DNA from: Hyalangium ruber
Lineage (GTDB): Bacteria > Myxococcota > Myxococcia > Myxococcales > Myxococcaceae
Reading direction: 5' to 3'
Assembly (NCBI RefSeq): GCF_034259325.1
Contig: NZ_JAXIVS010000006.1
Location: 310,001 to 374,000, forward strand
DNA length: 64,000 bases
The translations under genes and the position numbers were made by a program. The notes under the pieces are model-generated. The model worked only from the letters and a program-made list of their open reading frames with translations. It did no database searches and was not told the origin of the DNA. Below are positions 20,719-29,775 of the stretch, piece after piece; position 1 is the first letter of the stretch; every line of letters begins with the position of its first letter.

Positions 20719-20949
20719 GTTCTGGGTCTCTCCTCGGGTGCAACAGGGTGCGACGAGTCTGGAGCAGGAACCCGGCGACGCAACTTTTCGGGCGGCGCGC
20801 GAGGGCAGTACGCGCGGCCGGACCCCCGTCCCGCCGCGTGGACTCCCAGGGTGAGCGGGGCGGGTAACCCCGAGCGCTTTCAAGCACTTGGGCGTTGGCA
20901 CGGCGGCTGAAAGGGCCCCTGGCGGAGTTCAACCGCAAGGAGGCTGTCC

Positions 20950-21417
20950 GTGGAGAACGAGAACCGCATTGCTTCGATGTCCATCACCCCGACCCTGAGC
21001 CGCCAGACGCCGAAGAACGAGTTCGGCAACGTGCTGGCGCGCACCGCGCAGGAGGTCGTCTCGACGGGAGCGGGGCTCGTCGGAGGGGTGATTCCAGGAG
21101 TGCCGGTGGTGAGCGCGGCGGTGTCCAGCGTGCGCGCGGTGGTGTCCTCGGTGGCGTCGACGAGCAGTTCGGCGGTGCCGGTGCCGGGGAGTGGCGCGGG
21201 GATTTCGGGGAGCGTGGGAGGGGCGACGGGGAAGGGCGAGGCGTGGGACATGCTGGAGGCCCAGAAGCTGATGGCGGCGGAGGGCCAGAAGTTCAACCTG
21301 GCCTACCTGCAGCTGCAGAACGAGATGCAGCAGGAGAGCCGGGAGCACAACGCGGTCTCCAACATCATGAAGGTCCGCCACGACTCCGCGAAGGCGGCCA
21401 TCAACAACATTCGCTAG
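20950..21417 (+). CDS. Candidate T3SS needle subunit (SctF-like C-terminus)
   Basis: 155 residues from a GTG with AAGGAGG seven bases upstream. The first 100 residues are Ala/Ser/Val/Gly-rich. The last about 35 residues are helical and end NAVSNIMKV...DSAKAAINNIR. From memory, needle proteins such as PrgI end in NAQSNTVKV...DIDAAIIQNFR; about 12 of the last 34 positions agree, with the spacing kept. It is the first gene before sctI, where sctF sits in many T3SS operons. This is inference: the length is nearly double that of a usual needle protein (about 80). Confidence 0.55.
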   Translation: MENENRIASMSITPTLSRQTPKNEFGNVLARTAQEVVSTGAGLVGGVIPGVPVVSAAVSSVRAVVSSVASTSSSAVPVPGSGAGISGSVGGATGKGEAWDMLEAQKLMAAEGQKFNLAYLQLQNEMQQESREHNAVSNIMKVRHDSAKAAINNIR

Positions 21418-21430
21418 GGGCCCAGGCGCC

Positions 21431-21916
21431 ATGACGATCGACAAGGTCGGTTCGGTCGGCGGCGCGGGGAGTACTCCCGCGCTGGAGACCGGCAAGGAGC
21501 AGTTCGGCAAGGTGCTGCAGGGCGTGAAGGGCGTGGGGACAGGTCCCCAAGTGCCCGTCGCCACGGAGGGAGCGCCGCGCCCGGTGTCCTCGGAGGCGGT
21601 GCGAGGCACGCACCGCGCGCAGACGGTGGAGCGGGCGGCTTCGGGCAAGGCGGAGGTGACGGCGGGGGGGCGGGTGGACTCGGTGCAGTCGGCGCGGGCT
21701 CAGCAGGCCACGCAGATGCTGGATCGGGTGAGCCAGGCGCAGAAGCGGCTGGACCACATCCTGAAGCTGGCCGAGTCGGGCCGGACGTTCACCCCGGCCG
21801 AGCTGCTGGCGTTCCAGGCGCATGTGTACCGCGCCAGCCAGGAGCTCGACCTCGCCGGCAAGGTCGTCGAGAAGGCGACCAGCGGCGTCAAGCAGGTCCT
21901 CCAGACCCAGATTTGA
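21431..21916 (+). CDS. sctI: T3SS inner-rod protein SctI-like
   Basis: 161 residues. The N-terminal two-thirds is low complexity. The last 60 residues form the rod-type helix: FTPAELLAFQAHVYRASQEL then DLAGKVVEKATSGVKQVLQT, matching the YscI/PrgJ pattern (a Q-x-H/Y helix then SKVV..ATSGV..L..Q). The inner rod joins the export gate to the needle. It lies 13 bp after the needle-like gene and 11 bp before sctJ. Confidence 0.75.
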   Translation: MTIDKVGSVGGAGSTPALETGKEQFGKVLQGVKGVGTGPQVPVATEGAPRPVSSEAVRGTHRAQTVERAASGKAEVTAGGRVDSVQSARAQQATQMLDRVSQAQKRLDHILKLAESGRTFTPAELLAFQAHVYRASQELDLAGKVVEKATSGVKQVLQTQI

Positions 21917-21927
21917 GGAGCTTTGCC

Positions 21928-22728
21928 ATGAGACCCTCTCTCCGACGCTGCTTGTTGCTCGGGGTATTGCTGTGTACCGCCGCATGCAGGGAGCGCATCC
22001 AGCACGGCCTGGACGAGCGCCAGGCGAACGAACTGCAGACCGTCCTCATCGAGCGAGGACTGGACGCGCGCAAGGTTCCCGAGGCGGGCAAGAAGCCCAC
22101 CTGGGCCATCGAGGTGTCCGAGGAGCAGTCCTCGGACGCGGTGCGAGTCCTGGCGGAGCTGGGGTTGCCCCGGCCCGTGGCCGAGGCGGGGTGTGACGTC
22201 TTCGGTGGGGGAGGGCTCATCCGTTCGCCCGTCGAGGAGCAGCTCTGCCGGGTCCGGGTGCTCGAGCGGGGCGTCGAGAAGACGTTGCAGAGCGTCGAGG
22301 GGGTGCTCATCGCGCGGGTACATCTGATGGTGCCCCCTCCTCCACGTCCGGGGCAGACCGCGCCGCCAGCGAAGGCTTCGGCCATGTTGCGCGCGGCGCC
22401 GGGACAGGCGGCGCGAATCCGCCAGTCGCAGGAGACGCTCCGCTCGCTCATCGCGGGAGGCGTGGAGGGACTGTCTCCGGAGGCGGTGGCACTGTTGGTG
22501 GACGAGGCCACCACGCGGGTGGAGGTGTCCGCGCCTCGGGAATCTCCGTTGATGCGGCTGCGCGTGCTGCTGGCGGTGATGGGCGTGCTGGTGACGGGGC
22601 TGGCGGTGGCCTTGGTGTTCGTCGCGCTGCGCCTGCGCCACTACCAGGCGCTGGCCACAACGCCGCCCGCTACGCCACCCGTGCCCGCGCGGCCGGTGGT
22701 GGCGAATGCCGCGCGCAAGGTGGCGTGA
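21928..22728 (+). CDS. sctJ: T3SS inner-ring lipoprotein SctJ
   Basis: 266 residues from an ATG with GAGGAG nine bases upstream. A lipoprotein signal peptide (LLLGVLLCTAAC) is followed by a YscJ/HrcJ domain (ANELQTVLIERGLDARK, VEEQLCRVRVLERGVEKTLQ, VLIARVHLMVP) and a C-terminal membrane helix (LLAVMGVLVTGLAVALVFVA) with a short tail. This is the inner of the two membrane rings of the basal body. The ring-building motifs and the length are normal. Confidence 0.92.
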   Translation: MRPSLRRCLLLGVLLCTAACRERIQHGLDERQANELQTVLIERGLDARKVPEAGKKPTWAIEVSEEQSSDAVRVLAELGLPRPVAEAGCDVFGGGGLIRSPVEEQLCRVRVLERGVEKTLQSVEGVLIARVHLMVPPPPRPGQTAPPAKASAMLRAAPGQAARIRQSQETLRSLIAGGVEGLSPEAVALLVDEATTRVEVSAPRESPLMRLRVLLAVMGVLVTGLAVALVFVALRLRHYQALATTPPATPPVPARPVVANAARKVA

Positions 22729-22731
22729 GCC

Positions 22732-23280
22732 ATGGAAGCCACGCGCATCATTCAGCGGGCCAAAGTGGGGAAGCGGGCCGGAGCGGGCAAGAGCGACGAG
22801 GAAGCGACGCGCATTACTCGGCAGCCGGTCCAGAAGAAGAGCGCCGCGCCTGCTCCGCTGCCGAAGGCCCCCGCGGTCGAGGCTCCCCCGGCCAAGACCC
22901 CGCCCGCGTTGTTGCCGTTGGCCCGGTATGCGCTGGTGGCGCTGGTGTTCGGTCGGGAGCGGGCGCCGGAGTTGCTCGAGGGGTTGGGAGAGCGCGAGGC
23001 CGAGCGGGCGAAGGAGCATCTGACGCGCCTCGCGGCGCTCTCCTCGGCCGAGCGGCAGGCCAAGGTGGCGGTGGAGTTCGGGATGCGGAGCGATCCCTCG
23101 GAGCAGATCCGGCAGGTGATGTCGGAGTCTCCGGAGGTGTTGAGGCGGGAGATCTTCCGAAGGCTGCCGCCCTACCTCCGCACCCTCTTTCCAGCGCGCT
23201 CGGTGCAGCCCGCCGACGCTTCGGCAACCCCCGCCCTGTGCGCGCTGGCCGAGCGGTTGATTCGCGAAGTCACGCGCTGA
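22732..23280 (+). CDS. Unassigned T3SS protein at the SctK position
   Basis: 182 residues, 3 bp after sctJ. The first 55 residues are basic and Pro/Ala-rich, the rest helical (ALVALVFGRERAPELLEGLG, LRREIFRRLPPYLRTLF). There is no signal peptide. In Yersinia-type operons the gene after sctJ is sctK, the sorting-platform adaptor; this protein is about the right size but I see no clear SctK motif. Repeated LG-E and LSSxERxAKV sequences also recall parts of the flagellar FliG N-domain. A cytosolic platform role is inference. Confidence 0.6.
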   Translation: MEATRIIQRAKVGKRAGAGKSDEEATRITRQPVQKKSAAPAPLPKAPAVEAPPAKTPPALLPLARYALVALVFGRERAPELLEGLGEREAERAKEHLTRLAALSSAERQAKVAVEFGMRSDPSEQIRQVMSESPEVLRREIFRRLPPYLRTLFPARSVQPADASATPALCALAERLIREVTR

Positions 23281-23299: not shown

Positions 23300-24451
23300 A
23301 TGCAGACCCAACCCCGTGTTTCCAAGTCTCAGCTTCCGAAGGTGCCCCGACTGACCCGGCTCGGTACGCGCCGGCTCACACGGGCGCATGTGACGCTGGG
23401 CGAGCGTCCCCAGGTTTCACAGTGGGGAAAGCAGGCGCTCCAGGTCGTCTGTGATGCCCTGGGGCGTGAGCTGGGCACTCCCATGACCGCGGCGGCTCGG
23501 TTGGTCGATGCGCTCGTCATTCCAGCGGAGGGGCTCTCGCACACGGCGGCCTTCATCCTCCTGGACTTGTCGGAGACGGGGGGCACGGCGGTGTTGGAAC
23601 TGGACCTGCCGGTGCTTTTTGCCGCGCTGGAACGCCTCTCTGGGAGTCGCCAGCGGCCCGGACCCATGATGCGCCTGACCCGCCTGGAGGAGGCGACCTG
23701 CGCCTATCTGGTCCTGTCGGCGCTCGCGTCGCTGCGGCCCCAGGCAGAGCTTCACCGGCGGTTGGGACCTCGGCTCGCGGGTGTGTCGATGAGCCGGGTG
23801 GAGGCACTGGCGCGGCTGGACGGGCGTCGGCCGCACCTGGGCGTGGAGTTGTCGCTGACCGTGGGGCAGGTGGCGGCGAGTGGGCGGCTGGTGGTTCCCG
23901 CGGTGGTCCTCGAGTCCGCATGTAAGGACCTGCCCGTGGAGCGGGGCGCGGCTCTCGCATCAGAGCTCCTCGCGGCTTCACTGGGCGCCCGATGTTTTCT
24001 CGGGAGCGCCCGGCTTCCACCCGCTTCGCTGGAGGCGCTGTCGGTGGGCGACGTCATCGTCTTCGAGGCGGCCCGCCATGGAGGTGCGCACCTTCTGGGA
24101 CAAGGGCGGCTGGTGACCCGTGGCTTCGAGCTGACGGGTGAGTTCACCCCTGAAGGTTTCACCCTGACCCGTGCGCGCAAGCGCGCTCTTCCCCTGGAGT
24201 CGAACATGGCGAACGTAATGGAGCCGAGTGAGGGCATGCCCTCGCTCCCCGTGGATGTGGAGATTGAGCTGACGCGGTTGATGTTGCCGCTGTCGGAACT
24301 CGCGGCCCTGAGACCGGGCCACCTGTTGCCGCTGCGTATCAACGCCAGCGAGCCGGTGGTGTTGCGCATCGGGGATCGCGCGGTGGCTCGTGCCGAGTTG
24401 GTCGATATCGAGGGCGAGGTGGGGGCCCGCATCATCGCGCTGCTGCCATAA
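23300..24451 (+). CDS. sctQ: T3SS C-ring protein SctQ (SpoA domain)
   Basis: 383 residues. The C-terminal 70 form a SpoA/FliN-type domain (LPVDVEIELTRLMLPLSEL, LRPGHLLPLRINASEPVVL, RAELVDIEGEVGARI), typical of SctQ and FliM/FliN. The upstream 300 residues match the middle region of YscQ-type proteins only loosely. It forms the cytosolic sorting platform that docks export substrates. GAGG and a clear ATG at 23300 support the start. Confidence 0.88.
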   Translation: MQTQPRVSKSQLPKVPRLTRLGTRRLTRAHVTLGERPQVSQWGKQALQVVCDALGRELGTPMTAAARLVDALVIPAEGLSHTAAFILLDLSETGGTAVLELDLPVLFAALERLSGSRQRPGPMMRLTRLEEATCAYLVLSALASLRPQAELHRRLGPRLAGVSMSRVEALARLDGRRPHLGVELSLTVGQVAASGRLVVPAVVLESACKDLPVERGAALASELLAASLGARCFLGSARLPPASLEALSVGDVIVFEAARHGGAHLLGQGRLVTRGFELTGEFTPEGFTLTRARKRALPLESNMANVMEPSEGMPSLPVDVEIELTRLMLPLSELAALRPGHLLPLRINASEPVVLRIGDRAVARAELVDIEGEVGARIIALLP

Positions 24452-24468: not shown

Positions 24469-24873
24469 ATGCTTTCATCTCTCTCTCCCCGGCACCGCTT
24501 GCTGCTCGCTGGCGGACTCATCCTCGGTCTCGCGGCGTTGGCTCCACTGGGAGGGCTCTCGGCCTCCGGCGTCGCCCGTTGGTTGCTGGGCGCCATCGCA
24601 CTCGCGGGGCTTGGCTGGTGGCTGCGGCGGCGCAGCACCACGGGACCGCGCTTCTCCTTGCCCGAGCGCTTGCGGGTCATCTCCCGAGCAGCCCTCTCCC
24701 AGCGATGTGGCCTCGCGTTGGTCGAGGCGGACGGTCGCAGCTTCCTCGTGGCGTTCGGAGACTCGTTCGCGGAGATCCGCGAGGCGCCGATGCCCAACCG
24801 TGCGCCGAGTCTGGCACGCCGGATGGTTCTTCGGCGTAGGAGCGCGATGCCCCGGAAGGGGGCCATGCCATGA
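24469..24873 (+). CDS. FliO-like membrane protein in the T3SS operon
   Basis: 134 residues. Two N-terminal membrane helices (LLAGGLILGLAALAPLGG and WLLGAIALAGLGWWL) are followed by a short cytosolic FliO-type module: LRVISRAALSQRCGLALVE then ADGRSFLVAFGD. Flagellar FliO helps assemble the FliP ring and is normally absent from non-flagellar T3SS. Here it sits directly before the FliP homologue sctR, with a 4-bp ATGA overlap, exactly where fliO sits in flagellar operons. Confidence 0.72.
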   Translation: MLSSLSPRHRLLLAGGLILGLAALAPLGGLSASGVARWLLGAIALAGLGWWLRRRSTTGPRFSLPERLRVISRAALSQRCGLALVEADGRSFLVAFGDSFAEIREAPMPNRAPSLARRMVLRRRSAMPRKGAMP

Positions 24874-25595
24874 CGCGAGGACTTCTGGTGTCGCTGTTGC
24901 TCGTTCCGGCGTGGGCCTTCGCGGGTGAGCAGACGCTCTCGCAGGCGTCCTATGCGGGCAGCCCGCTGTCGATGATGTCGATGCTCGCGGTGATGTCCCT
25001 GTTGCCGTTCGCGGTGCTGATGCTGACGAGCTTCTCGAAGATCGCCGTGGTGCTCTCGCTGGCGCGCTCGGCGATGGGGACGCAGCAGGCCCCGCCAACC
25101 CTCGTGCTGACGGGGCTGGCGGCGGTGCTCTCGGGGCACATCATGGCGCCGGTGATGGAGCGCATGTACGACGCGGGACGCATCGCGTACCAGGAAGTGG
25201 AGTCGGGTGCGCAGATGCTCTCCGCGGCGAACCGTGCGACGGAGCCGTTGCGAGCCTTCCTGGTCAAGCACGGCAGCCCCGAGGAGCGGGCCCGCTTCGT
25301 CGACCTCGCGCGGGAACTGCGGCCGCCCGAGGAGGCGGAGCAGGTCCAGGAGATGGACCTCTTCGTGGTCATCCCGGCCTTCGTCCTCACCGAGCTGAAG
25401 GAGGCCTTCCAGATTGGCTTCCTCATCTTCCTCCCGTTCCTGGTGCTGGACATGGTCATCGCCAACGTCCTGCTCGCCCTGGGCATGCAGACGCTGTCGC
25501 CGAGTCAGGTGAGCCTGCCCTTCAAGATCCTCCTCTTCGTGGCCGTGGATGGCTGGTCGCTGCTCGCGCGCGGGCTCATCCTCGGGTACCGGTGA
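24870..25595 (+). CDS. sctR: T3SS export gate protein SctR
   Basis: 241 residues. A signal-like N-terminus (LLVSLLLVPAWAFAG) like FliP, then LPFAVLMLTSFSKIAVVLSL, the FliP/YscR signature ELKEAFQIGFLIFLPFLVLD, and MQTLSPSQVSLPFKILLFVA. It forms the core of the SctRST export gate. It starts 4 bp inside the FliO-like gene and ends 4 bp before sctS. Length and motifs are normal for SctR/FliP (215-245). Confidence 0.95.
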   Translation: MTRGLLVSLLLVPAWAFAGEQTLSQASYAGSPLSMMSMLAVMSLLPFAVLMLTSFSKIAVVLSLARSAMGTQQAPPTLVLTGLAAVLSGHIMAPVMERMYDAGRIAYQEVESGAQMLSAANRATEPLRAFLVKHGSPEERARFVDLARELRPPEEAEQVQEMDLFVVIPAFVLTELKEAFQIGFLIFLPFLVLDMVIANVLLALGMQTLSPSQVSLPFKILLFVAVDGWSLLARGLILGYR

Positions 25596-25599
25596 TGCC

Positions 25600-25869
25600 A
25601 TGACCCAGGACGTCCTGCTCGCGCTCGGTCGCGAGGCGTTGCTCCTGATGGTCTTCGCCTCCCTGCCGCCCATCGGGGCGAGCCTGGTGGTGGGTTTCCT
25701 CATGAGCCTGTTCCAGGCGACCACCCAGCTTCAGGAGAGCACGCTCACGGTAGTGCCCAAGCTGTGCGCCGCGGTGCTGGCGCTGGTGCTCACCGGGCCG
25801 TGGATCGCCGGGCAGCTCACCCGCTTCACGCACCAGTTGCTCACGATCATCGCCGAGGTGTCCGCGTGA
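25600..25869 (+). CDS. sctS: T3SS export gate protein SctS
   Basis: 89 residues from an ATG at 25600, four bases past the sctR stop. Two membrane helices (ALLLMVFASLPPIGASLVVG and LCAAVLALVLTGPWIAG) and the family signature SLFQATTQLQESTLTVVPKL. It is the usual FliQ/YscS size. The last four bases overlap sctT as GTGA. Confidence 0.95.
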   Translation: MTQDVLLALGREALLLMVFASLPPIGASLVVGFLMSLFQATTQLQESTLTVVPKLCAAVLALVLTGPWIAGQLTRFTHQLLTIIAEVSA

Positions 25870-26660
25870 GCTGGAGCCTCCTGGGTGAGCAGCTCGAGCT
25901 GCTGGGGCCGGATATCGTGGCGGTCGCGCTGTGTGCCGCGCGCCTGGTGCCGGTTGCCTTCCTGTGCCCGCTCTTGGGCGGGCAAGCCGCGCCGACCACC
26001 GTCAAGCTCTCCCTGGTGCTGAGCCTGTCGCTGTTCCTGCGCCTGGTGGCGGGCGTTGGGCTCTCGACGCCCGTGGAGTCGCCGCTGGTGCTGGGAGCGC
26101 TCGTTCTCAAGGAGCTGGTTTATGGAACCTCCGTGGGGCTCGTCGCGGCCCTACCGTTCGACGCGGCGCGGATGGGAGGGCGTTTCATCGACCTTTTCCG
26201 GGGCACCTCCGCCGAGGCGAGTCTTCCGGTGGCGGGCAGCCGGGAGTCAGCGACAGGGGATGGCCTGTACCAACTGCTCGTCATGCTGGTGGTGACGGGA
26301 GGGCTGTTTCCGGCTGTGGTCTCCGGGTTGCTGCGTGGGTTCGGAGTGGTAGGGCTGGGTGCCTTCGTTCCCTCGGAATCCGCGGCGCTCTTCGTCGTGC
26401 GGCTGGCGGGAGGAGCGATGGCCACGGGACTGGCGGTGGGAGCCCCCATCGCCGCAGCGGCGCTGGCCGTGGACTGCCTCATGGGAATGGCGTCTCGCGC
26501 GGCACCTCAGATGAACCTCCAGGAACTGGGAGCTCCACTGCGAATCCTGGGCGGGGGCGCCATTCTGTGGCTCGGCATTGGAGTGCTCTGCGAGCGGCTG
26601 CTCGCGGGCGTGATGGACTTGGAGGGGACGCTGCTGCTGCTGGGGGAGGCCGCGCGATGA
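25866..26660 (+). CDS. sctT: T3SS export gate protein SctT
   Basis: 264 residues from a GTG overlapping sctS by 4 bp. Polytopic FliR/YscT protein: ARLVPVAFLCPLLGGQAAPT, ALVLKELVYGTSVGLVAALPF and PIAAAALAVDCLMGMASRAAPQMN are family-typical. It completes the SctRST pore with sctR and sctS. The stop overlaps sctU by 4 bp. Confidence 0.93.
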   Translation: MSWSLLGEQLELLGPDIVAVALCAARLVPVAFLCPLLGGQAAPTTVKLSLVLSLSLFLRLVAGVGLSTPVESPLVLGALVLKELVYGTSVGLVAALPFDAARMGGRFIDLFRGTSAEASLPVAGSRESATGDGLYQLLVMLVVTGGLFPAVVSGLLRGFGVVGLGAFVPSESAALFVVRLAGGAMATGLAVGAPIAAAALAVDCLMGMASRAAPQMNLQELGAPLRILGGGAILWLGIGVLCERLLAGVMDLEGTLLLLGEAAR

Positions 26661-27703
26661 GCGAGAAGACGGAGAAACCCACGGCGAAGCGCCTGCGTGA
26701 GGCGCGCCACAAGGGACAGATTCCGCGCAGTCGCCTGCTGTCCTCCAGCGCCGTAACGCTGGGAGGGCTGCTCGGCTTCACCGCCTTTGCACCCGAAGGC
26801 TTCGAGCGACTGAAGGACTGGACCGCCCGGTTGTTCCTGGGGGCGGAGGCCACCGGCGCCTGGGAGGAGGGACTGTGTTTGATGGCGCTCCTGTCGGGTC
26901 CCGCGCTGGGGGGAGCGTTGGTGGCCGCCCTCACCGTGTCCGTGGCCATGGTGGGCTTCGAGCTGAACACGGAGCACCTGACGCCCAAACTGGAGCGCAT
27001 CAACCCCGCAGCGGGCTTCAAGCGCCTCTTCAGCGTGCGCTCGCTGGTGGAGACGGCGAAGGCCCTGGTGGTGGCGGCAGTGGTCGCCGCCATGGTGTGG
27101 AACGAGGTGGAGGAGGCAGGGCCGGACGCACTGCGAGCGGTGTGGCTCGAGGGAACCGCAGGCCTGAGCCACCTGGTAGGGCGCCTTGCGCCCTTGGCTA
27201 CCCGCATCGGCTGCGTGCTGCTGGTCCTGGGCGTGGGGGACTACGCGTTGGCGCGGGTCCGGCACACCAAGGACTTGATGATGACCCGCGAGGAGGTGAA
27301 GCGGGAGTACAAGGAGAGCGAGGGCGATCCGCACCACAAGGCGCAGCGCAAGGCTCTGCACCGCCAGTTCGCGCAGGGCGGTCCGGCACGCGGGGTGCAA
27401 AAGGCCACCGCCGTGGTCGTCAACCCCACGCATATCGCGATCGCGCTCCGTTACGACACCCAGGAGTGTGATGCGCCCTACCTCGTCGCGAAGGGGCGCG
27501 AGGCGGACGCACTCATGCTCCGGCAGGAGGCCCAACGCCGTGCAATCCCGGTGGTTCGGGACGTTCCGCTGGCGCGCAGCCTCATCCACTACGACGTCGG
27601 GGAGCAGATCCCCGAGGAGCTCTACCAGGCCGCGGCCGTCGTGCTGAGGGTGGCGATGGAGTCTCGCGATACGGACAGGAGTCCACGGAGTCGGATGCCA
27701 TGA
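26657..27703 (+). CDS. sctU: T3SS autoprotease switch SctU
   Basis: 348 residues. Begins EKTEKPTAKRLREARHKGQ, the FliB/YscU N-motif, then four membrane helices, the linker EVKREYKESEGDPHHKAQRK and the self-cleavage site NPTH in VVVNPTHIAIALRY. Cleavage between Asn and Pro switches substrate class in flagellar and T3SS relatives. The NPTH motif is intact. It overlaps sctT and sctV by 4 bp. Confidence 0.95.
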   Translation: MSEKTEKPTAKRLREARHKGQIPRSRLLSSSAVTLGGLLGFTAFAPEGFERLKDWTARLFLGAEATGAWEEGLCLMALLSGPALGGALVAALTVSVAMVGFELNTEHLTPKLERINPAAGFKRLFSVRSLVETAKALVVAAVVAAMVWNEVEEAGPDALRAVWLEGTAGLSHLVGRLAPLATRIGCVLLVLGVGDYALARVRHTKDLMMTREEVKREYKESEGDPHHKAQRKALHRQFAQGGPARGVQKATAVVVNPTHIAIALRYDTQECDAPYLVAKGREADALMLRQEAQRRAIPVVRDVPLARSLIHYDVGEQIPEELYQAAAVVLRVAMESRDTDRSPRSRMP

Positions 27704-29775
27704 AGCAGCTCGTTCAGATTCTCTTGAAGGCGCGCAAGTCGTCGGACGTGGTGCTCGCGGTGGCCATGGCCGCGGTGCTGGGCGCCCTGATCATTCCCCT
27801 GCCACCGGCGGTCCTGGACCTGGGGCTCGCGATCAACCTGGCGGCGGCGGTGGCGCTGCTGGTCGCTGCGCTCTACGCCCAGGATGCGCTCAAGGTGACG
27901 GCCTTCCCGACGCTGCTGCTCTTCACCACGCTCTTCCGGCTCGCGCTCAATGTGTCCTCGACGCGGCTCGCGCTGGCCGAGGGGCATGCGGGTGAGGTCA
28001 TCCAGGCGTTCGGGGAGTTTGTCGTGCGAGGGGACTACGTGGTCGGAGCCGTGTTGTTCGCCATCCTCACGCTCGTCCAGTTCCTCGTGGTGGCCAAGGG
28101 CGCCGAGCGCGTCGCGGAGGTCTCCGCGCGCTTCACCCTGGACGCGATGCCGGGCAAGCAGATGTCCATCGATGCGGACCTGCGCGCTGGAGCCATTGAT
28201 CAGGCACAGGCCCGCCAGCGACGGCGCAACCTGGAGCGTGAGTCCCAGATGTTCGGCGCGATGGATGGTGCGATGAAGTTCGTGAAGGGGGATGTCATCG
28301 CAGGGCTCGTCATCGTGGCTGTGAACCTGCTGGGAGGAACCGCCATCGGCGTCCTGCAGCAGGGCATGAGCCTGTCTGAGGCCGCAGCGACCTTCGCCCT
28401 CATCGCCATTGGTGACGGGCTGGTCTCGCAGATCCCCTCGCTGTGCATCGCCGTGGCGGCGGGCCTCGTCGTCACACGGGTGGCATCGGAGAAGGAGGAG
28501 GACTCGCTCGGCTCGGAGATCGGTTCCCAGTTCTTCGGGCAGTCACGGGCGCTCTGGGTCGTCGCGGGACTGTGCGGGGCGCTCTCCCTGATGCCGGGGA
28601 TGCCGTTTCTGACCTTCCTGGGCCTGGGAGCGCTGCTCGGAGGGCTGGCTCATGTGCTCACTCACTTGAAGAAGGCAGTGGCTGAGAAGGAGGCTCGGGT
28701 CGAGAAAGAAGCTCAGTCCTCTGCCGAGGGCTCGGATGCAGGCGCGGCGCCGGCAAGCGCGGCGGCACCGGTAGGTGTCTCGCCACTCACCTTGGACCTC
28801 GCCCCGGATCTGACGCCGCTGGCGCAGGAGCAAGGCGGTGCCTTCGTCCACCAGCAGCTCAACCAGCTTCGCGACGAGGTCTTCTACGAGTTGGGGGTTC
28901 GAGTGCCGGGGATCCGGGTGCGAACCCACGCGGCGTACCTGCCCGCCGGGGGCTACGCCATCCTCGTGGATGAAGTCCCCGCGGGAACCGGCCAGGTGGT
29001 GCCAGGGACCCTCTACGCGCTCTCCCCACCGGACGAGTTGTCGTTCCTCGACGTTCCGCTCGAACCGGCGACGGACCCCGCCACGGGCAAGCCCATCAGC
29101 CGGCTGGCCGAGAGCGGGCGCACGCGGCTGGAAATGGCTCAGGTCCCCATGAAGCGGCCGTCCGAGCTGATCATCCACCACTTCCAAAGCATCCTGCGCG
29201 CCCGCGCCGCGAGTCTGCTGGGAGTCCAGGAAGTACAAGGGCTCCTGGAGGGGCTGGAGGCACAGGCGCCCATGCTGGTGAAGGAGGCGCTCCAGAAAGT
29301 CCCGCTGCCGCTGCTCGCCGAGGTGCTGCGCAAGCTCCTCCAGGAGCGAGTGAGCATCCGGAACATGCGCGCCATCCTGGAGGCGCTCGTCTCTCCCACC
29401 ACCGAGGGGGATGCGACGGCGCTCGCGGAGCGCTGCCGGCAAGCCCTGCACCGCTACCTGAGCCACCGGTTCGCCCCCTCGGGGCCGCTCTTCGCCTACC
29501 TCGTGGATCCCGAAGTGGAGGAGAGCCTTCGGGGCACGGGGCCTCGGGGGCCCGCGCCCGACCCGGAGCGCGTCGCGGAGATCCTCGAAGGGGTCCGGCG
29601 CATCGCCACGGAGGGCAAGGCGGTACTCCTGACGGCGCCGGATGTGCGCAGGACGCTCCGCAGGCTCATCGAGGGAGCTTTCCCCGAGGTGGCGGTGCTG
29701 ACCTACGGCGAACTGGACGTGGATCTGCAGATCCGGCCCCTGGGACGCCTGGCGCCCGTGCCGGTCACCGCATGA
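27700..29775 (+). CDS. sctV: T3SS major export apparatus protein SctV
   Basis: 691 residues. The N-terminal half has about eight membrane helices with the conserved FHIPEP-type loop (FPTLLLFTTLFRLALNVSSTR and the later FTLDAMPGKQMSIDADLRAG). The C-terminal half is the cytosolic ring-forming domain (HHFQSILRARAASLLGVQEV, YRLSHRFAP-type helices). It docks substrates with the ATPase and drives export. It ends the operon; the stop is 6 bp from the convergent IHF gene. No SctN ATPase, SctL stator, secretin or tip protein gene is in the window. Confidence 0.95.
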   Translation: MKQLVQILLKARKSSDVVLAVAMAAVLGALIIPLPPAVLDLGLAINLAAAVALLVAALYAQDALKVTAFPTLLLFTTLFRLALNVSSTRLALAEGHAGEVIQAFGEFVVRGDYVVGAVLFAILTLVQFLVVAKGAERVAEVSARFTLDAMPGKQMSIDADLRAGAIDQAQARQRRRNLERESQMFGAMDGAMKFVKGDVIAGLVIVAVNLLGGTAIGVLQQGMSLSEAAATFALIAIGDGLVSQIPSLCIAVAAGLVVTRVASEKEEDSLGSEIGSQFFGQSRALWVVAGLCGALSLMPGMPFLTFLGLGALLGGLAHVLTHLKKAVAEKEARVEKEAQSSAEGSDAGAAPASAAAPVGVSPLTLDLAPDLTPLAQEQGGAFVHQQLNQLRDEVFYELGVRVPGIRVRTHAAYLPAGGYAILVDEVPAGTGQVVPGTLYALSPPDELSFLDVPLEPATDPATGKPISRLAESGRTRLEMAQVPMKRPSELIIHHFQSILRARAASLLGVQEVQGLLEGLEAQAPMLVKEALQKVPLPLLAEVLRKLLQERVSIRNMRAILEALVSPTTEGDATALAERCRQALHRYLSHRFAPSGPLFAYLVDPEVEESLRGTGPRGPAPDPERVAEILEGVRRIATEGKAVLLTAPDVRRTLRRLIEGAFPEVAVLTYGELDVDLQIRPLGRLAPVPVTA

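Follow-up and report, generated by a model that had tools for sequence, protein, structure and literature searches.

A gene directly upstream of sctI in a secretin-free cluster

The window analysed here is a stretch of 64,000 nucleotides from the 10.8-Mb genome of Hyalangium ruber (C6:310001-374000). It carries a type III secretion system (T3SS) cluster in which all genes, from the open reading frame under study (hereafter the candidate) through sctV, lie on the + strand (Table 1). The candidate begins with a GTG codon behind an AAGGAGG Shine-Dalgarno sequence, its stop codon is followed after a gap of 13 nt by the start of sctI, and its substitutions relative to homologues, 27/22/54 and 30/17/52 by codon position, are concentrated in third positions, which argues that the open reading frame encodes a real protein. 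The order candidate-sctI-sctJ has its counterpart in prgI-J-K. The preliminary description of this DNA, made from the sequence alone, had placed the open reading frame right before sctI in a Myxococcales-type T3SS, which is borne out, and had mentioned that myxococcal systems are described as early-branching and lacking a secretin. No secretin match was found within the window cluster, and the three secretins of the genome that score above cut-off all lie elsewhere. Neither a needle chaperone gene nor a TPR gene of the LcrH/SycD or CdsG type was recognised in this locus. Since the only FliI/YscN-type ATPase above the family cut-off in the genome belongs to a second, long T3SS locus (C1:988601-989878), no separate ATPase gene could be recognised in this short cluster. 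Based on its gene content, we assign it to the 'short' myxobacterial locus type (PMC3459982).

Table 1. Features of the candidate gene and of the short T3SS cluster, in window positions.
Feature	Position	Strand	Basis or remark
Shine-Dalgarno AAGGAGG	20937..20943	+	6 nt upstream of GTG start; read from sequence
Candidate long SctF (needle/pilin-like) subunit, 155 aa	20950..21417	+	GTG start at 20950, stop 21415-21417
Conserved N-terminal part, RQTPxxxFGxxL ... SAAVSS, residues ~17-59	20998..21126	+	homologue alignment
Needle-like C-terminal helix, residues 95-155	21232..21414	+	pLDDT mostly 80-88; core motif = residues 120-155
sctI, inner rod	21431..21916	+	Pfam PF17001 (T3SS_basalb_I) 9.7e-5
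sctJ, inner-membrane ring lipoprotein	21928..22728	+	PF01514 (YscJ_FliF) 7.6e-17; TIGR02544 5.1e-37
182-aa protein between sctJ and sctQ	22732..23280	+	weak FliG_N match 0.047, non-significant
sctQ, C-ring	23300..24451	+	TIGR02551 2.4e-31
FliO-like protein	24469..24873	+	PF04347 24.2 bits, cut-off 22
sctR	24870..25595	+	PF00813 3e-66
sctS	25600..25869	+	position and sequence, no family search
sctT	25866..26660	+	position and sequence, no family search
sctU	26657..27703	+	PF01312 7.6e-98
sctV, export gate	27700..29775	+	TIGR01399 7e-208, above cut-off

A relative of the candidate was found in 120 of the 145 genomes of the order, with named records from Hyalangium, Archangium, Citreicoccus, Corallococcus and others of the Myxococcaceae type, and our own family profile, which was built without the Pfam needle model, matches 163 of 195 Myxococcota genomes. 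The gene is co-inherited with sctI and sctJ of the non-flagellar T3SS: in 50 of 53 distinct loci the next gene 3', in the same orientation, is sctI, and in the three exceptions sctI is contained in an overlapping longer ORF, the contig ends, or no neighbours were recognised.

The protein ends in the helix motif SN..K...D....I..N.R, and in a 31-row alignment of the C-terminal region Q28, Q32, E34, N43, I56 and N58 (alignment numbering) are invariant. All aligned homologues keep the C-terminal pattern, whose absence from homologues the preliminary description had named as evidence against a needle subunit. The N-terminal ~93 residues are of low complexity, as had been noted for about 100 residues, and are modelled by AlphaFold with low confidence. 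They are not random filler, given the conserved motifs RQTPxxxFGxxL and SAAVSS, within which R18, T20, F25, G26 and S55-A57 are invariant or at least 90% conserved among homologues, and this motif region could possibly serve as an export signal. With 155 aa, and 132-197 aa among homologues, the candidate falls outside the ~70-90 aa of SctF needles; this size is typical of needles rather than defining, and Hrp pilins are longer. We also observed that an N-terminal FxxxL motif is common to the candidate (FGNVL; window 20950-21417) and SctI (FGKVL; 21431-21916), as well as to many of their homologues, and it might represent a signal for export as an early substrate.

A second, long T3SS locus with small relatives of the candidate

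The same genome carries a long T3SS locus at C1:970.8-996.8 kb, in which a 188-aa paralogue shares 34% identity with the candidate over the last 93 residues. The genes here are arranged in the order 92-aa gene, 188-aa paralogue, TPR gene, 131-aa gene, sctI, sctJ, which parallels the order yscE-F-G-H-I-J. Among 22 such long loci, the 92-aa gene was present in 21 and sctI lay within 3 kb in 19. The 92-aa gene occupies the position expected of SctE, but we rejected it as a possible SctE, since no similarity to SctE could be detected. The TPR gene directly 3' of the paralogue resembles known T3SS chaperones, with matches to LcrH/SycD in all 11 members and to CdsG in 9 of the 11.

Close to sctV of the long locus we found four identical 75-aa genes and one diverged 73-aa gene, all on the + strand (C1:974567-979278; L044:14567-19278), the products of which carry the same C-terminal pattern as the long proteins. 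Other genomes contain 2-6 copies of genes of this type. In many cases these copies are identical, which points to recent duplication or to gene conversion. In single-sequence searches, this 75-aa family was detected in 32 of the 145 genomes of the order, compared with 120 for the long protein. One genus includes genomes of 9.0-9.5 Mb whose long locus holds the long paralogue together with two 74-aa genes.

Several further genes of the long locus deserve mention in their own right. Between a YscO-like gene and sctQ lies a gene for a FliK-like protein (C1:987095-988039; L045:7095-8039) that matches Flg_hook at 2.2e-6 and 27.8 bits, just under the cut-off of 29.8; a FliK-like protein is a length-control protein, here in a system said to be needleless. 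A 639-aa protein encoded between sctJ and sctL (C1:990605-992524; L045:10605-12524) matches FliG_C above cut-off (26 bits, 1.1e-5), although Myxo systems have been reported to be without FliG. Beside full-length sctU there is a free-standing copy of the SctU/FlhB cytoplasmic domain of 93 aa (5.3e-28; L045:1697-1978), in which NPTH is absent by eye. Finally, a second FliO-like protein that scores above the Pfam cut-off is encoded at L045:5019-5690, so that both T3SS loci contain a FliO-like gene, in agreement with a report of FliO in both Myxococcus xanthus systems, only one of which is involved in prey killing, as cited there (PMC12403147).

Relationship of the C-terminus to needle subunits

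When the C-terminus of the candidate was compared directly with MxiH, an ungapped alignment gave 12 identities over the last 34-35 residues, exactly the number that had been counted by eye against PrgI over 34 residues in the preliminary description. The Smith-Waterman score was 49 versus 22.3 +/- 3.9 for shuffled sequences (z ~6.8), and none of 2,000 shuffles reached it. The candidate scored 13.5 bits against the Pfam needle family (PF09392 / TIGR02105) and did not reach the cut-off of 29.4; searched alone, it gave weak matches below cut-off to HrpF (0.036), T3SS_needle_F (0.085) and HrpA pilin (0.023). When 49 long members of the family were searched against 24,736 Pfam families, the most frequently matched were HrpF (21 members) and T3SS_needle_F (17), both of them T3SS families, and against 18,950 NCBIfam models the HrpA pilin ranked first (19 of 49, best 2.1e-5). 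Families without a link to T3SS were matched by at most 8 of the 49. Matches of the candidate to IATP and RTX were dismissed as composition effects, being found in only 4 and 1 of the 49 members, respectively.

Searches of the PDB with the single candidate sequence returned unrelated low-scoring matches and no needle, and a profile of the long members alone likewise found no needle. The homology thus depends on intermediates. A profile combining the long members with the 75-aa family retrieved a single significant chain, the C-terminal part of a needle in 7y6c (5.7e-5), followed by an unrelated entry at 0.25, and the 75-aa profile on its own retrieved the same chain as the sole significant match (1.7e-4), with unrelated entries from 0.11; neither profile contained a sequence chosen with a needle model. 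An earlier, broader profile, the top 13 PDB matches of which were needles, was set aside because some of its sequences had been selected by means of that Pfam family's needle model. In profile-profile comparisons, the long members matched the 75-aa family (97.6%, 2.7e-12) and those relatives in the phylum that had been picked by the Pfam needle model (98.1%, 6.5e-14), compared with 0.3% and 0.2% for control profiles built from two neighbouring operon genes; the neighbouring SctI family (PF17001), compared with a view to the candidate being a second rod subunit, was matched at 8.9% (E 0.0037). Searches with the Pfam-picked relatives in turn retrieve both MxiH and PrgI, with E-values of 4e-7 to 2e-6, a result that is not independent, given how these relatives were selected. 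Only three ORFs, in two other genomes and with lengths of 233 and 246 aa, score above the Pfam needle cut-off, at 33 bits. Across 30 Myxococcota genomes from outside the order, the Pfam needle model gave ten matches at E<=0.01, nine of which coincide with ORFs matched by our own profile, built without the Pfam model.

Collectively, these comparisons support a link between the candidate and needle subunits that is transitive but strong. The homology spans ~40 residues, and no counterpart of the N-terminal helix known from canonical needles was located in the candidate. The profile alignment to SctF that had been proposed as a check succeeded by way of the 75-aa members and the phylum relatives, and failed for the long members alone. 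The proposal of a needle-type C-terminus in the sctF position is supported by homology, position and phylum-wide conservation.

In AlphaFold predictions of the candidate, only the C-terminal helix (residues 95-154) was confident; the pTM was 0.24 and no confident helical hairpin was obtained. The 75-aa relative was predicted as a loose hairpin (pLDDT 65). When this model was compared with solved structures (Foldseek, VIA-align), needles were matched with TM scores of up to 0.60 (PrgI, with E>1) and Z ~6. This is compatible with needles, but we do not use the structure comparison as evidence, since unrelated helical proteins scored alike and needles ranked no better.

A putative filament subunit and the alternatives

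Myxo systems have been described as lacking both secretin and SctF, with the argument that SctF would have been found if present, and evolutionary reconstruction placed a loss of SctF in the earliest T3SS branch (PMC3459982). Needle homologues were also reported missing in later work and the system was termed needle-less (PMC10433427, PMC12075869, PMC10849154), with Tad pilus tips being proposed as a substitute for the missing needle (PMC12075869). The cluster in the window belongs to the same lineage as the M. xanthus T3SS* (mxan_2434-2464) and the 'Myxo' T3SS of Abby and Rocha (PMC3459982), with which it shares the core export apparatus, rod, ring and a secretin-free cluster; in contrast to those descriptions, we find SctF candidates in loci of either type, short and long. 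None of the papers covered by our literature search names an SctF in myxobacterial T3SSs, although one may have been recognised before.

We consider it likely that the candidate is the SctF-equivalent of the short myxobacterial T3SS, serving as its needle or pilin subunit, and that the 'needleless' myxobacterial systems probably build their export tube from an unusually long subunit. Similar to MxiH, PrgI and EsaG-SsaG (PF09392), the candidate carries the needle motif at the protein end within a sctF-sctI-sctJ order and a T3SS context. It differs from MxiH and PrgI (80-85 aa) in its length of 155 aa with a long, low-complexity N-terminus, in its Pfam score below cut-off and in the lack of a confident hairpin. 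The LcrH/CdsG-type TPR gene behind the long paralogue and the FliK-like gene of the long locus also favour this reading, whereas the short locus, with no recognised needle chaperone or ATPase gene and no secretin, speaks against it. We infer that the protein is secreted and polymerises: it would exit via the SctRSTUV gate and assemble on the SctI rod, within the SctJ ring, into a periplasmic or extracellular tube. The C-terminal ~40-60 residues would form the conserved helix, packed in the core of this filament and lining its channel. The ~90-residue N-terminal part would combine an export signal with a flexible stretch. This stretch would stand in for the N-terminal needle helix or, as supposed for Hrp pilins, cover the outer surface of the filament. 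Because the cluster encodes no secretin, such a tube would have to stay periplasmic, use another outer-membrane channel or cross in some other way. Should the gene in the sctF position indeed encode a needle or pilin, the filament was retained in the ancestral non-flagellar T3SS, and a genetically tractable predator would allow a direct test of how such a filament operates without a secretin of its own. Models of predation have been built on a needleless myxobacterial T3SS, such as the one with Tad pilus tips in place of the needle (PMC12075869).

One form of this reading, which overlaps with it and does not add to it, is a long and flexible pilus subunit of the Hrp-pilin type (HrpA or HrpE) in place of a rigid needle, and we regard it as a tentative option. 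The HrpA pilin is the most frequently matched NCBIfam model, the Pfam HrpA_pilin family matches two members, and the Hrp pilins (HrpA, NF053530 / PF09589; HrpE, PMC6026121) likewise have a longer subunit with a variable N-terminus and a conserved helical C-terminus. On the other hand, the candidate itself reaches 15 bits against the HrpA cut-off of 34, the match partly covers a low-complexity Ala/Ser/Gly stretch, and Hrp pilins come from plant-associated bacteria, whereas the candidate belongs to a secretin-free T3SS cluster of predatory bacteria. The matches to HrpA pilin models do suggest that a long N-terminus in an extracellular T3SS subunit has a precedent, so that its supposed novelty, as put forward in the preliminary description, holds only in part. 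That the C-terminal resemblance reflects convergence of a short amphipathic helix, the candidate being an unrelated export cofactor, seems highly improbable to us. The homologous stretch of ~40 aa in low-complexity surroundings and the failure of the long members alone to find PDB needles would fit convergence, but two independent profiles hit identical ORFs in 9 of 10 cases, the Pfam and NCBIfam libraries agree, synteny is conserved and the control profiles fail.

The main alternative gains weight from larger proteins. Elsewhere in the Myxococcota, this C-terminal tail is found at the end of proteins of 300-1,400 aa, with matches that finish at most 4 residues from the C-terminus, and many of their genes are directly followed 3' by a gene for an LcrH-like TPR protein, the usual partner of translocators. 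The candidate could accordingly be a needle-tailed tip, translocator or EspA-like filament protein that uses its needle C-terminus for docking or chaperoning, while the true needle is another protein, for example of the 75-aa family, five members of which, of canonical needle size (73-75 aa), are encoded in the long locus of the same genome. We think this unlikely, as in nearly every genome the sctF position by sctI-sctJ is held by the long proteins, the short locus showed no other candidate, and the 75-aa family is far less widespread in the order than the long protein (32 versus 120 of 145 genomes).

Two of the large tailed proteins contain a calpain-like protease domain (3.7e-13 and 1.1e-12; L194:979-4320 and L201:382-2550). 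This, the tail at the end of large proteins and the TPR genes that follow many of them led us to the speculative idea that the needle C-terminus may be a portable tail for export or docking, which ends both true needles and large proteins with variable front parts. Needle-tailed subunits would in this way carry cargo out of the cell and become incorporated in the T3SS filament or attached to it, and systems without a secretin in the cluster would deliver effectors as part of the filament and not through it. Large tailed proteins were seen in L183-L202 (G157, G182, G188, G189, G190, G192 and others), with up to 27 matches per genome and often as two adjacent genes. In two genomes of another family of the order (G013 and G027), a second needle-tailed protein, of 296 and 284 aa, is encoded away from the sctI locus (L203:8440-9764 and L136:1034-2349). 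In both G013 (L203:8874-9764) and G027 the next gene appears TPR-like by eye, and the family of G013 includes other genomes that have only the short locus.
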